Position numbers and translations under genes: made by a program
In this document: positions 34,720 through 42,266 of the stretch, in pieces
Position numbering within the stretch: position 1 is the first letter of the stretch
Layout of the letters: every line of letters begins with the position of its first letter
Assembly: GCA_028456385.1 (NCBI GenBank)
Contig: JALNQF010000178.1
Coordinates: forward strand, 26,016-90,015
DNA: 64,000 nucleotides
From: Ophiosphaerella korrae
Taxonomy: Eukaryota > Ascomycota > Dothideomycetes > Pleosporales > Phaeosphaeriaceae
Direction: 5' to 3'
Notes under the pieces: generated by a model
The model's input: only the letters and a program-made list of their open reading frames with translations
Told to the model about the DNA's origin: nothing
Databases searched by the model: none

Positions 34720-35621
34720 TCAAGTCCTTCGTGCTCGTAGGAGAGTCGCCAGTGCTTCTGCATCAGCTTTCCCATTGAGAACCATGCTCCCCCCATGCGC
34801 CTTATTTTCTTTATACAGTCTTTGCACAGGCCCGTTGTTCTGCCGTTCGACAAGATCAGTGTTAAACACATTTGCGTCATCGAAAGCTTCATTGCCAACC
34901 CACGACACCTTGTCAAGTTTTAGCACTCCAATATCCTCATTTGTATGCGGTACAGTGCCGTTGCCTGGCATTGTCAGTAGTAGTCAACAAGATGGTATGG
35001 CTTTGCAATACTGTCTTCCTTTGAGCTCTTTCCTTCAGGCTGAGTAGCAATATTAAGTCTCTGGCTAAGAATATGTTGCATGTTTTGATCAACTCGCTGG
35101 ACAATCGCCAGAGTCTCTGTAGAGCCAGCATGGATCGAACCGCTGAGTCCAACATGTGTGGCGAGAATTCGTGTATCAAGTTCTCCCTTTGCGCGATCCA
35201 AGCGCGTCCAGATGTCATCTAGACGTGTTTCATCGCGACCTCCATTTGCAAACTCATGTGTGTACTGTACAAATTTACTCTTCCTTCGTCGTTCAGCTAA
35301 AGTATTCAGCTGATCATACAGCTCGTTCCCTATATTGACAATCACTTGAATTTGCTTTCGGATTGCCGTGGTGTGTAACCCTGTTTCATTTCGCACAAGG
35401 TTTAGAGTGCTGAGTAAGGTGTCGAGCTGGCCTTTATAACGATGAAGACGATCAAATCCGCCATGCACTTTCTCTCTTACGCTCTGTAACTTTTGAACGA
35501 TGGTAATTGCTTGGCTAAGTAGCTGGGACACGGCTGCTGTGCTACCAATTATCTCCTGGTGTGTTCTGTAAGTTTGTACTTTTCACTATATATGGGTTCA
35601 AGAGCATACCAACACTGGCAT
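34720..35621 (-). CDS. HeLo-like-domain protein with two C-terminal amyloid-motif repeats
   Basis: Minus-strand exons 35621-35610, 35555-35012 and 34964-34720 give a complete 266-residue protein. It begins MPVLEIIGSTAAVSQLLSQA, a hydrophobic first helix typical of fungal cell-death and STAND N-terminal domains, and continues as a helical domain to about residue 180 (HRYKGQLDTLLSTLNLVRNE; DDIWTRLDRAKGELDTRILA). A linker leads to two similar 18-residue units: VSWVGNEAFDDANVFNTD and RLYKENKAHGGSMVLNGK. These share N-x-A-x-[DG]-[DG] spacing and an N-[TG] ten to eleven residues after the first Asn, as in HET-s-related amyloid motifs. In known systems such proteins are membrane-disrupting effectors triggered when an NLR templates amyloid folding. 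The divergent neighbour is such an NLR. Gene structure and role are inferred from sequence. Confidence 0.7.
34762..34821 (-). other. Amyloid-motif repeat 2 of the effector
   Basis: Encodes RLYKENKAHGGSMVLNGK plus two residues. It aligns without gaps to repeat 1 and to the motif in the neighbouring NLR (Asn, Ala +2, Gly +4, Asn +10, Gly +11). Confidence 0.6.
34852..34908 (-). other. Amyloid-motif repeat 1 of the effector
   Basis: Encodes VSWVGNEAFDDANVFNTD plus one residue. It aligns without gaps to repeat 2 and to the NLR motif at 35960-36013. Confidence 0.6.
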
Positions 35622-35827
35622 GGTCGCCCGACTGTCCTTCTTTCGAATACGGGGACTGAAGATGATTGCTTTGTTTTGTTGGAGTGGTATTTGTCGTCAA
35701 GGCTGAAAGTAAGCCTGGCAAAGCCTACCTAATTGCTTGCGGGACACTTGGCTGCATGATGACAGCCTTGCGTTCTGCACTAGCGTTTCTCATGCTCTCT
35801 ACCAGCTCACCAACTTTCATTTGCACC

Positions 35828-38335
35828 ATGAAGTGGTCGCCCAGGGACAGGAAGGAGCTTCGCCTTCCACCAGCCACAGACCCCGCGCCCAACCAACTTC
35901 TAAGGGTTGGTACGACAAGCGGTGGCGCACCGCCTACCCCAATGCAGTCTCCAACAACGTACACATACACGGGAAATCGAGCAGATGACGACTTGAAGAA
36001 CGTTTACGGCAACGTCTGTGGTGACGTGCATGTACCGGAGAGATTTAGCGGGATTAATAAATGCATCCAAGAACTGCGAGTCACAGATCCTCACTACGAC
36101 CGGGCCAGGATCGAAGCCGACAAGGACAGGCTACGCAAAGACTGCTATTTCTAGATTTTGAATGACAGCAACTATCAGCGATGGAGGACACACAGTGACT
36201 CGAGGCTGCTGTGGATTAAGGGAGGTCCGGGCAAGGGCAAGACGATGATGTTAATGGGGGTTGCTGAGCTGTCACAAGAAATCCGGGCTGAGCGATCTAG
36301 TAGAAGTGTGGGCCGAGTCGACGTCCACACTTGTAGCTTACTTCTTCTGCCAGATCACGCGGCCAGAACTCAACAACACGGTGTCTGTCCTTCGTGGACT
36401 TGTATACATGCTCATCACGTAAAGAAAGCAACTCAAGCGATATGTTCAAAACCGATACAAGGCAGCAGCTCGCAAGCTGTTCGAAGGACCAAATTCCATC
36501 TACGCGTTGAAAGAAATACTTTCTGACATGCTCAACGACGCCTCTTTGTCCATGACTTACCTTTTAGTTGACGGATTGGATGAGTGCGCCACAGATATGT
36601 GTAATCTTCTGCAGGTTATAACCGATGACAGACTTGTCCAACAGTCGAGGGTCAAGTGGCTAGTCGCGAGCCGTCATTCACCAGAGATTGAGCAATATCT
36701 ATGCCCTAGCATAGCGGGCATCACGGTTAGCCTTGATGTCAATACTAGTCCAATATCGAAAGCCGTAGCAACATTTGCCGATATAAAGGTGCAGTGACTA
36801 GCGGCTATGCAGAAATACGACAATGAGACAAAAGCAGAAGTTCTATGGCTACTCCAAGATAAGGCAGAGGGCACATTTCTGTGGGTGCCTTTGGTGTGCA
36901 AGGAGTTGGAGAGCATTGATCGATATCGTACTCGAGAGGTATTGCGAGAAATGCCGCCTGGGCTCGACCCGCTGTACGCGCGCATGGTTGGACAGATCTT
37001 GAAACAGAAAACTGCACAAACAGCACAATTTCGCAGAGATATAATCCAGGCTGTCATAATCGCTTATCGGCCATTGAAGCTGAATGAGGTGGCTGCAGTT
37101 GTAGGTCTACCCAAAACCCATATTCGGGACATGCAAGACGTTATTGATCTTATCGGCTGCTGTGGCTCATTTCTCGCAATTTGTAACAACACTTTATTTT
37201 TCATTCATTTGCCAGCTAAGGACTATTTTGCAGCTGGTAGAGGCCAAGACTTGCTAAGTGGAACAATAATCGAGAAACATGGACGAACGACCCATCGCCT
37301 ACTAGATGAATGTATAGCATGTTGAGAAGAGACATATGCAACTTACAGAATCCAGAGACATCCATAGATGACGCAGTGGATTGTGTTGAGCATAGCGATC
37401 TTCCTCAGATTGCATATGCATGCGAGTACTGGTTTCATCATCTTTGAGATACGTGTGAAAGAAGAGTCTGAAAGTATCGTATCCGACAATGGCAAAGTCC
37501 ACAACTTCCTATAGAAGCATTTTAATCACTGGCTGGAAGCAATGAGCTTATTGCAGAAGATTCCCGAGACATTCGTGTGTTCTGGGGTTTGCAAGCAATG
37601 ATATCATGTGTAAGTAGGAAACTCATGATAGGTCAACGTGGCGACTAAATCAATCCAGCGCAGTAACTGCGTCATACTATGCGAATGGGTAAGGGATGCA
37701 CTGTTGCTCGTAGCAAGCGAGTATGCCATGATACAGTACACGCCTTTGCAGGTGTATGCTGGTGTACTCCTTGGACCAGAGCAGAACTCCGTCCGGCAAA
37801 AACTTTTTCTGTCAATGCTGGAGGAAGTAAAAGGTCCTGTACACCTTCGACAACCACCGTGTGCACAAACCCTTGAAGTCTCGCCAGCAGGAGATCACCT
37901 TGTATCGGTTTCCGTAGATCAGGCCCTGAAGGTGTGGACTATGAAGACTGGGCAACTGCTGCTCCATCTCAATGGTCGTCGAAAACGCAAGGTGTGTATT
38001 GCCTTCTCACCACTAGGTAATCAACTAGCATCGACTCACGGAGGTATGAACGTGTGGTTATGGGATTTGACGACAGAACAACCTTCGCACATGCTTATTG
38101 GTCATGGAGACTTGGTGACCCAAGTAGTATAATATCGGTTTCCCGGGATAAGGAATTGGGGGTGTGGAATTCAAAGACGGGAGAGCCTCTACACACATTC
38201 CAGTATCTTGACAGAGTGGATCATGGCATGGTATTCTCGCTAGCAGGAAATCATATATTATCATTATCTTCAGATGGTACATATAGGATATGGGATTTGA
38301 AGACAGGACTACTCTGGTATAGGCTTATATCTTAG
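35828..38335 (+). pseudogene. Broken NACHT-WD40 NLR with an N-terminal amyloid motif
   Basis: Starting near ATG 35828 (MKWSPRDRKE), a Pro-rich stretch is followed by the motif YTYTGNRADDDLKNVYGN (35960-36013), then CIQELRVTDPHYDRARIE, the standard lead-in to a fungal NACHT domain. Walker A is GGPGKGKT (about 36225-36250). Walker B reads YLLVDGLDEC (36558-36590). The helical region (GTFLWVPLVCKELESI; MPPGLDPLYARMV) and the post-NACHT block (PLKLNEVAAVVGL) follow. From about 37740, PLQVYAGVLL leads into WD40 repeats ending in IWDLKTG-type strands. Inactivating changes: TAG at 36152 in place of an expected Trp, a frame change near 36300, a stop near 36420 in place of Gln, TGA near 36796, a frame change near 37320, and TAG near 37516. 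It cannot give a full protein. Confidence 0.8.
35960..36013 (+). other. Amyloid motif before the NACHT domain of the broken NLR
   Basis: Encodes YTYTGNRADDDLKNVYGN, which aligns gap-free with the two effector repeats (shared Asn, Ala +2, Asp/Gly +4 and +5, Gly +11). One copy in the NLR and two in the adjacent effector is the stoichiometry seen in HET-S/NWD2-type pairs. Confidence 0.6.
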
Positions 38336-39090: not shown

Positions 39091-41298
39091 CTAAACAGTC
39101 ACATACTCCATCACAGTCGACGTAACATACCTCGTCTGCGGCCCCACCGGCGTTGGCTTCGGGGCCTCACCACCTCCAGGATTTAGCGTCACACTGCCCA
39201 TGGACATCGACGTTGCTACGGGCCTTGCACTCGACGCCCCACTCCGCGAAGCACTCGCGCGCGCACTAGATGAAACACTCACATTTACGCTCGCGCTCCC
39301 ATTCCTCCACTCAAACTCGCCCTTTTCCTTATCAAACACCCCATGCACCACGCCCGTCTCATTCGTCCCCCCCACACCCGGCCCATCATAAACCGGCGGA
39401 TTCCCATCAATCTCCTCCCGATACTCGACGTCGCCAATCCACTCGGGCACCTGTGTATCCGACTTGGGCACACTCACCGGCACGCTGAACACGGTGACGT
39501 TGAGACCCGCGGGCGGGTCGTTGCGCGGAATCTCAGTAAAATCTAGGGCCTGGATGCGCCAGGAGAAATTCTCCTTTAGGTATGCCGCTACGTCGGACTT
39601 TGCTAGCGATGGTAGGGCGCCGGTGGCGTGTAGCTGGGCGAGACGCGCGGTGAGGGATATGCTGCCTGTGACGATGGTGTCTGATTTCATGCGGGGCGAG
39701 GACATAGAGGCGAGTTGGCCGACGTATGTTTCGGCGATGGGCCAATTCTTTGGGTCTTTAGGGGGCGCGCCGAGGAAGGCGCGGACGGCGTAGGATACCT
39801 TGATGTCGGTGGGCATGTTGACCTCGCAGAGCCAGTCGGTCGCTTGGGTGGTTTTGTTGGAGCCGGGACCGGGGGTGGGGGTGGTGGCGTTGAGGCCTTG
39901 TGTGGCGGGCTTGTACAGCTTGTTGAGGGTGGCGGTGAAGGAGTCGTTGGAGGGGTTGGGTAGGAGCTCTGGGTAGGTGTAGCCGAAGGAGGACCAGTTG
40001 CGGGAGGTGGCGGAGGTCCACATGTGGCCGTCGGCGTTCATGTGGAAGGGGGTAAGGGGCGAGTCGGCGGTTTGGGCGCTGCCTTTGGCGATGGTGAAGG
40101 TTCCCATGGCTTGGCTAGCAGATTCAACCCAGGTGTCTGGGTAACGATACTGGTATAGGGCGATGATTCGGTCAATGTTGCTAGATAAAGTTAGCATATT
40201 ATTGAATATTAGGTTCGCACCACCCACCAATGATGAAGCCAGAAAAGCGGATCAAAAGCAGAGACCTCGACGATACCCATGTGGCCCAACCCAAAAACGT
40301 TGTGAATACCATCGTGAAGCGTCTCAAAATTACCAATAGACCCGCCATTGGCTTTATTGCTGACCTGGTTGAATGGCTGGTAGGTGGTGAGTAGCTTGTA
40401 AAGCATGTCCCGAAGATTCGGCTGTTGTTTGGTAACGCGAGCGTTGACATCGTCGTCGCGACTTGTAGCATTGATGGCAAATCCATCTAGTGGGTAACGG
40501 ATAGTGTGGTTCCAGTTCTTGAACTGAAACTCGCTCTGCAAATCATTAGTCTCTGCAACTTGCATACTAAGAACCTAAACATACCAAGGGAGCAAAGTCA
40601 TCGTACTTCAAGGGATGGAAGTTGTATCGATACAACGGGTTGTTAACTTGACCAGTAGTTCCATTCGGGAAAGTGAGCGTCACAACCGGACGTCGAAGGC
40701 TGCCGGGTATAGAACCTTGGTCGTTTGGAGGATCAACTGCCCAATCCCAGTACGGAAGTCGGACTTTATGTGCGACTTGCATAGCTTTGTCTCTTGCGCC
40801 ACCCTCAGGATACTCGTTTGCAATATCCACAGCTCGATCATGAAGAATTTGTTCAAAAAGGGCAAGGTATGGTCGATGCCACGGTCCAAACAAACTGCTT
40901 TGATGAGGACAATAGCCCATGACGCCTGTATCGCTTTGCCCACCCACACGATCCCATTTGTTAAACGGAGCGCCGTGGATTCCTAACCTGTCTTAGAGGA
41001 CGAATTCAACTCACGGAGAATACATACCAGCAATCTGATAATACGAGATCTTCTCGTTCTGATCCATGGCCTGAAATCTCGCCAAGGCTAGCAAAAACAT
41101 ATTCCATGTCTCCGTGTCTTTTTCAAGTTCACGGAGATCCTGTCGAGCATGTACACCCGTGCCTTGCACCCCAACAACGCTGAAGAAGCTGTCATCCGCC
41201 TTGGCAACTCCGCAAGACGGGCCAGACGACGCGGCTAGTGCAGTTCCTAAGAACGAAAGTGAAGTCGTAAGGCTTATGAAGAAAAAGAAGAACTTCAT
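39091..41298 (-). CDS. Secreted tyrosinase (type 3 copper monooxygenase)
   Basis: Minus-strand exons 41298-41028, 40982-40585, 40535-40228 and 40180-39091 give 688 residues. A signal peptide is clear (MKFFFFFISLTTSLSFLGTA). Copper-A ligands: His in IHGAPFNKWDRVGG and the two His of YCPHQSSLFGPWHRPYLALF. Copper-B ligands: HDGIHNVFG and DPLFWLHHCNIDRI, the latter created by the third splice. The C-terminal 300 residues form the usual tyrosinase extension, with many N-x-S/T sites and a Ser/Ala-rich stretch before a hydrophobic end (STVMEYVTV). The enzyme oxidises phenols to quinones, for melanin or phenol metabolism. No melanin cluster genes are next to it. No defect seen. Confidence 0.95.
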
Positions 41299-42266
41299 CG
41301 TGGCCGGCCAAAAAAAAAAGAGTGAAATGGCCCGTCAAGAGCCGAAAGGAACGAACGTGCAAATGCAACGAAGAAAAGAATGAACGGCCGGTGCCCGGTC
41401 TGGAGGAGCTGCAGGTTGGGGTGCAGGAGGGCGGCTTGGTGGCGAGCTCCATTGAGATATTTATGAATTCGTCGGTGGAATGAGTGTCCAGGTCCTTGCC
41501 CCGCTGTGGACGTGTGAGGTCATGCCAGGCTGTGCCGTACGCCTTCATGCAACCTCGCCAGCCAGACAGAGGACCACCAATGTTTCTTGATGTATCCCTG
41601 TATGCCGTTAGGCGTCCGAAACATGTTCCGTTTCCTCGCATGAAGTGGGGCTGGAGTATAATGAGATGTGGTGGAGGACTAATCAGGGGAGGGGAAATCT
41701 ACCGGTATACCGAGACTTGTAGAAGTAATCGAAATGAGAAAAACAATGGTCAATTTGAAATATCTCTAAAGCAACACTACAGAAACCGCTTGACGTGAAA
41801 GGTACCATCGAGGATAAAAGTTGTCGACTTGGATGCAGAGCAAGGCCATGAACGCTCTCTACATCACGCATTAAACAGTACGTCAGCAGAAGCGGTCCAG
41901 ATCACTACATTTGACTCTTGCATAGGCACTGGGTAATGGTATTGCTTAGTTGTGAGATAGCAGGGCGAGCGCACGGGCCGATGCAGATGGTGCGACAGGG
42001 CCAACAGCAAATAAACGAGCCACTGAAATTTCCTGCAGAACAGAATTGGTCAGCGTAGACCACTCACAGGGCGTGTACCCAATCGGTGTATGGCAAATGC
42101 TGGCCTGGTAGAAACCGTACCTGGCGAACAGCAGGCTCGGTAAATGCGATATATGCCGATGATGATCGACCCACCCGAGGTGGGGTGGCTGTGCATACTA
42201 CCAAGATGATGCGTACACTCATCCCCGTTGAAACTCTCTCGGCCTACATTTCACGCTGCTATTGCT
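41299..42266. other. Intergenic region
   Basis: Tyrosinase promoter (minus) and 3' flank of the OB-fold gene. No gene supported. Confidence 0.4.

Follow-up and report, generated by a model that had tools for sequence, protein, structure and literature searches.

A divergent effector/receptor gene pair with a common short motif in Ophiosphaerella korrae, read as a HET-S/NWD2-type signalling module

A divergent gene pair of Ophiosphaerella korrae, located at positions 34720 to 38335 of a 64,000-nucleotide stretch of contig JALNQF010000178.1 (hereafter the window; contig C88 in the 63 Mb genome), is interpreted here as a two-gene cell-death signalling module of the HET-S/NWD2 type, with a probability of roughly 0.68. 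The pair consists of an effector gene, the product of which ends in two pseudo-repeats (R1 and R2), and of a pseudogene for a NACHT-WD40 NOD-like receptor (NLR) with one motif of the same kind (R0) at its N-terminus. The interpretation is carried by the gene models, the linkage, the register of the motifs, the charge complementarity of R1 and R2 and the decay of the NLR, all of which were observed. The proposed mechanism is modelled on NWD2/HET-S and HET-eN/SESA, as described in the available parts of PMC3321046 and PMC5485727. An NLR without an effector domain of its own would oligomerise and thereby bring its N-terminal R0 copies together. Once stacked, R0 would serve as a template on which R1 and R2, at the C-terminal end of the adjacent effector, adopt the same stack, probably an amyloid of the beta-arch type. 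This would release or cluster the N-terminal SesA-like helical bundle, which would kill the cell, probably through an effect on membranes. Both amyloid templating and membrane killing are transferred by analogy from these systems.

Effector gene and receptor pseudogene

The effector gene (34720..35621, minus strand) comprises three exons (35621-35610, a first exon of 12 bases; 35555-35012; 34964-34720, including the stop codon), separated in the splice model by introns of 54 and 47 bases. It encodes 266 amino acids, arranged as a helical domain followed by the two C-terminal pseudo-repeats. The same structure had been put forward by a model from the letters and open reading frames only (hereafter the sequence-only reading), and it is borne out by full-length relatives and by the paralogues on contigs C379 and C458. 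Among 5.8 billion proteins, 34 effector relatives were retrieved with the single sequence and at least 78 with a profile, which was scored against the 7997 candidates sharing most words. In end-to-end alignments of deposited proteins, the relative from Macroventuria (267 aa) is 58% identical to the window effector over 100% of the length, that from Byssothecium (267 aa, same layout) 57% and that from Didymella 51%, the full-length relatives ranging from 48 to 58%. The 12-base first exon is supported by P0001, P0002, P0003, P0006, P0007 and P0008, which open with four residues followed by EVIGG (P0003 shares MPVL), and by the paralogue L020, the frame of which opens at the same codon, just after an acceptor-like TAG. 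Support for the second intron comes from many single-frame metagenome relatives, which end at or just past its place.

The NLR pseudogene (35942..38335, plus strand) was recognized by matches to NPHP3_N and WD40. Its start lies probably at 35942, where relatives begin as well. The two ATG codons are then 320 bases apart (35622..35941), and this divergent intergenic stretch is a presumed shared promoter. The NLR is dead, as the sequence-only reading had also held: compared with the intact paralogue on contig C223, it contains six in-frame stops (one in the first aligned stretch, five in the second), and the reading frame changes between the two stretches, near 36318. Repeat-induced point mutation as the cause of this decay is unsupported here, with (CA+TG)/(AC+GT) = 1.27 over the window NLR.

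The motif common to receptor and effector

R0 (YTGNRADDDLKNVYGNVC; 35966..36019, plus strand) has the same place and register in the window NLR as in NLR relatives, which were retrieved with residues 10-150 of the C379 NLR as query (120 listed of 173). Of the 120 NLRs listed, 104 fit a loose motif pattern in their first 90 residues and 100 in their first 25, while 89 fit a stricter full pattern. The consensus is YxGNRADGxSTNxYGN, with a length of 18-24 residues; the typical form is YSGNRADGDSTNIYGNVYGDVHFP, and variants include YDSNRIDGNAIAILGN and YTGNRADGDAIQINGN. Five other NLRs of this genome carry R0 as well, in the same place and register. Subtypes of R0 (RADGDSTNIYGN, RIDGNAIAILGN and RADGDAIQINGN) occur among the NLR relatives (P0037, P0041, P0053 and others) and may correspond to separate signalling channels. 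Three PNP_UDP-NACHT proteins (P0080, P0122 and P0130) have an all-in-one layout, in which R0, complete or shortened, follows the enzyme domain and precedes NACHT.

R1 (WVGNEAFDDANVFNTDLV; 34849..34902) and R2 (YKENKAHGGSMVLNGKAD; 34762..34815), both on the minus strand, are conserved in the effector alignment. A profile made from the NLR motif ranked R2 first (9.9) and R1 second (2.0) among the windows of the effector, with the next one at -3.6. The gap-free alignment of the three 18-residue segments proposed in the sequence-only reading is thus upheld. Across 11 effector sequences (nine proteins and the C-terminal pieces of L020 and L021), R2 ranked first in ten and R1 in one; the two were the top two windows in 9 of the 11 and within the top three in all of them. 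P0006, P0163 and P0194 contain no readable R2 in their deposited form. In the reverse direction, the best window of an R2 profile coincided exactly in register with R0 in 85 of 111 NLRs, compared to 1.3 on average and 35 at most in 60 column shuffles (9 of the 120 NLRs listed gave no site).

R1, given as WVDNEAFDDADMFN-, and R2, given as YKGNKAHGRSTVVQGN, share a pattern with opposite charges. The charge product of R1 and R2, summed over the 11 effectors, was -22 in register and -14 at the next best slide; the in-register value was reached in 0.6% of R2 re-dealings (P 0.006 by a partner permutation that ignores the relatedness of the effectors). The residue after Asn is E in R1 and K in R2 in nine effectors and the reverse in P0007 and P0176; in P0168, outside the pattern-matched set, E in R1 and K in R2 were seen by eye. 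Since P0007 and P0176 are each nearer to some E/K effector than to each other, the swap happened at least twice, or it reverted.

This complementarity bears on two alternatives. The first is that R0, R1 and R2 serve for docking without amyloid, the NLR binding the effector stoichiometrically via a short beta element. All statistics of this analysis fit such a pair equally, and the composition of the motif, with many D, N and G residues and no strong hydrophobicity, agrees with docking. Stacking is better suited by the two-to-one ratio of motifs in effector and NLR, by in-register charge pairing within one chain and by the precedents of SesA/sigma and HET-S; docking is judged improbable.

The second alternative takes the motif for a divergent HET-s-related amyloid motif (HRAM) and the locus for an ordinary member of the HET-s/NWD2 family with a beta-solenoid motif. 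HRAM repeats are likewise anti-correlated in charge, which has been interpreted as in-register stacking, and the available part of the same source defines the HRAM as a 21-residue motif with N/Q/H at position 3, K/R at 15, G at 19 and hydrophobic residues at 5, 8, 10, 16 and 18 (PMC4518210). In the window, too, two repeats in the effector face one in the N-terminal part of the adjacent NLR, the genes are divergent as in het-s/nwd2, and the repeats are anti-correlated in charge in register, including the residue after Asn. The distance from the conserved N to the conserved G is, however, 11 residues here and 16 in HRAMs. Of the eight published HRAM features, R0 showed 3-6 (111 sites, best of 14 offsets; 77 of the sites at 4) compared to 3-7 in NACHT control windows, and R1 and R2 showed 4-6 (mean 4.88 in eight effectors) compared to a mean of 4.70 in matched helical-domain blocks, so that the motif was no better than matched controls and does not agree with the HRAM definition. 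At E up to 10, the motif had no match in Pfam; in PDB, no HET-s structure was matched, the repeat profile hit three unrelated chains (E 0.5-0.92) and the R0 profile none. Spacing, control-level feature counts and missing database matches led to the rejection of HRAM membership as published, and with it the HRAM subtype suggested as possible in the sequence-only reading was given up; a divergent HRAM is considered unlikely.

Linkage, distribution and decay

Three complete copies of the effector family are encoded in this genome (C88, C379 and C458), with remnants on C217, on C340 and at a second place in C379. Two of these are frame-broken remnants of the repeat exon: L020 2293-2579 (plus strand) beside the C379 pair, and L023 2355-2620 (plus strand), solitary in C340. 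R0 was found in 6 of the 47 NLR hits in this genome (C217, C767, C223, C379, C458 and C88). In the other 41 hits, the alignment starts at query residue 38 or later (36 hits) or between 17 and 37 (five hits: C701, C35, C126, C137 and C13); R0 was not seen in C701, C35 and C126, the three inspected of these five. Directly before the linker, the N-terminus of the C35 NLR (L041) contains another kind of stretch, with many G, N and F residues. At least 88 NACHT matches were obtained in the whole genome.

Effector and NLR are paired in divergent order on C379, C458 and C88, and the C217 NLR lies beside an effector remnant; no neighbouring effector of this family was found for the C767 and C223 NLRs. 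The arrangement typical of HET-S/NWD2, an adjacent NLR and effector with a common motif, is thus present in the window and on C379 and C458, and with a remnant on C217. The linked pair with one and two motifs and an intact effector, which had been proposed for the window from its sequence, therefore recurs at homologous loci. Among public proteins, 13 of 77 effectors are encoded on a contig equal in size to that of a member of the NLR set, compared to 0.37 in offset controls, and for contigs of at least 4.5 kb 12 of 29 effectors match an NLR-set contig, compared to 0.06 expected; equal contig size serves here as a proxy for the same contig, the contigs themselves being unread and P0197 left out. 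Locus tags agree with the linkage in Plenodomus (NX059_012303 and _012301) and in Alternaria sp. MG1 (CUC08_Gglean011894 and 011896). The five named sources looked up (Macroventuria, Byssothecium, Plenodomus, Paraphoma and Didymella) belong to the Pleosporales, while Viridothelium, the source of one NLR relative, lies outside this order.

Besides the window NLR, those on C458 (seven stops in the first exon) and C217 (one stop, middle lost) are broken. No stop was found in the C379 and C767 NLRs as far as the contigs run, both of which end within the WD40 part. A second broken NLR (L021 1177-2310, minus strand) is located near the C458 effector. In the window, a tyrosinase gene (39091-41334, minus strand), with central and C-terminal tyrosinase domains in two frames, adjoins the NLR pseudogene.

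The broken NLRs on C88, C458 and C217 would be expected if the pair were a decaying remnant, with a dead NLR and an idle effector that is merely not yet broken. The window effector is also the most diverged among ten compared (47-57% identity, compared to 60-78% among the others). On the other hand, it showed no lesion where about 3.3 would be expected over 266 codons at the lesion density of its own NLR (rough P 0.04), the C458 effector was likewise free of lesions where the density of its NLR predicts some (rough P 0.04), and the other R0-carrying NLRs look intact, so that a mere remnant seems rather less likely, though it is a stronger contender than docking or a divergent HRAM. Lesion-free codons and a dN/dS (ratio of nonsynonymous to synonymous substitution rates) near 0.18 between the domain pieces of the window and C379 favour retained use of the window effector, and the intact effector is probably a cell-death gene. 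As the local NLR is dead, the effector of the proposed module would be switched on only by other motif-carrying NLRs (C379, C767 and C223), or it would be idle. These three NLRs are stop-free as far as their contigs run, which makes the term 'orphan', used for the effector in the sequence-only reading, too strong. Signalling between non-adjacent genes has been proposed for other motifs in the available part of PMC9815663. If solitary NLRs do act on distant effectors, an effector can outlive its own NLR.

Effector domain and known systems

Exon 2 (35012..35555, minus strand) encodes the SesA-like domain, a predicted helical bundle named after SesA matches in relatives and modelled with AlphaFold2 (AF2) for the relative P0008. 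At E up to 1, SesA (PF17107) gave weak matches in 26 of 35 relatives of a first set and in 45 of the 78 found by profile, with a best E of 1.1e-4 among the latter; P0001 stayed below the gathering score (16.9 of 26.3 bits over profile positions 1-117 of 122). MLKL_N and Rx_N matched weakly in 7 of the 78 relatives each, HeLo gave no match among the Pfam families listed for the window exon 2 and the relatives, and NCBIfam yielded scattered weak matches at E up to 0.1. By the count of weak matches, the N-terminal domain of the relatives seems nearest to SesA, not to HeLo or HELL. A domain profile retrieved 8 PDB chains at E up to 10, the best of which (0.023) was a designed protein. The fold matches of the P0008 domain model include Rx-CC, MLKL and NRG1, with IncA and designed proteins scoring equally with MLKL; HET-s HeLo structures were not among the 50 matches listed, which is not evidence of absence.

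Several observations weigh against the proposed module. With exon 2 of the window effector, SesA was not matched at E up to 1, so that the cell-death-type domain of the sequence-only reading finds weak SesA matches in the relatives and none in the window itself. Coiled-coil families matched the relatives as well (TPR_MLP1_2 in 23 of 78, Nuf2 in 21 of 78). The AF2 model of the full-length effector was poor (predicted local distance difference test, pLDDT, of 54) and was not used for the fold search; that of the P0008 domain was moderate (pLDDT 68.8), its fold-match Z scores were within reach of unrelated helical bundles (about 13 is possible by chance), and Foldseek gave no match below 0.001. 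On the side of the motif, the 111 R0 sites were chosen by a loose pattern, which also picked up 6 sites other than the N-terminal motif. The window R2 is without the Arg at +5. R1 and R2 are weakly alike, with 1-6 identities of 18 across the 11 effectors and 4 in the window; their kinship is visible via the family and the NLR motif and not directly, a correction to the sequence-only reading. A looser test, which scored the best window before the linker, found R2 in 93 and R1 in 37 of 106 NLRs, compared to 8.4 expected by length (14 of the 120 NLRs, without a usable linker or N-terminus, were dropped). In 100 column shuffles, R2 averaged 30.6 and reached at most 87, whereas R1 averaged 8.2 and reached at most 44. 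Since the shuffles reach 87 for R2, composition explains part of the score, and R1 by itself does not decide the matter. In addition, dS was saturated between the window and C458, one of the three domain comparisons.

We read the motif as a separate family, mostly of Pleosporales, which would drive a SesA-like executioner. The chances are about even that it represents an unnamed amyloid motif family (GNxADGxS type) apart from HRAM, PP, sigma and PUASM, centred on the same order, in which many NACHT NLRs would converge on few SesA-like executioners and solitary NLRs would act at a distance. The common motif hints at a further protein-folding signal for self-triggered cell death in fungi. The literature searched contained no description of this motif family or of a pair that it forms with the SesA-like effector, nothing on the motif strings and nothing combining SesA, NLR, amyloid and Dothideomycetes. 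To our knowledge, few families of amyloid signalling motifs have been named in fungi. A conserved motif with its own effector family, of peptide size and with natural charge-swap variants, would allow a clean test of signalling specificity and cross-seeding barriers, and intact effectors beside dead NLRs make fungal receptor/effector networks testable. A survey of 2022 reports, in its available part, effector counterparts for HRAM, PP, sigma and PUASM and for a minor PNP_UDP-linked motif with four pairs; its ascomycete motifs NLR34 (unassigned) and NLR40 (called HRAM-related) have 0 neighbours and 0 effectors in Table 1 (PMC9815663). Either of the two, known here from table entries and not from logos, could be the same as R0.

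Among known systems, the four-helix bundle of MLKL, plant Rx-CC and the RPW8-type CC-R domain gave weak sequence matches and Z scores in the range of unrelated bundles. PUASM and PP resemble the present system in a matched motif that is N-terminal in the NLR and C-terminal in the effector, according to the part of PMC9815663 available. Their patterns (FxGxGxQxxGxGxF and G-h-Q-h-G, respectively) were not seen on reading R0, R1 and R2, there was no Pfam match, and PNP_UDP was not among the effector matches listed. In SESA/SESB/HET-eN of Nectria haematococca, as far as covered by the source text available, a SesA-type effector has a C-terminal motif in common with the N-terminus of the adjacent NLR, as here; the sigma submotifs GxGxQFNxx and GGTQNINT, three in about 40 residues, were in contrast not seen by reading R0, R1 and R2. 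From HET-S/NWD2 of Podospora anserina, the locus differs in a motif that is not HRAM in spacing and features and in the lack of a Pfam HeLo match among the families listed. In both systems, the neighbouring genes are divergent, the NLR has one motif where an effector domain would otherwise be, and the effector ends in two pseudo-repeats of complementary charge; the module is of a kind that is already known.

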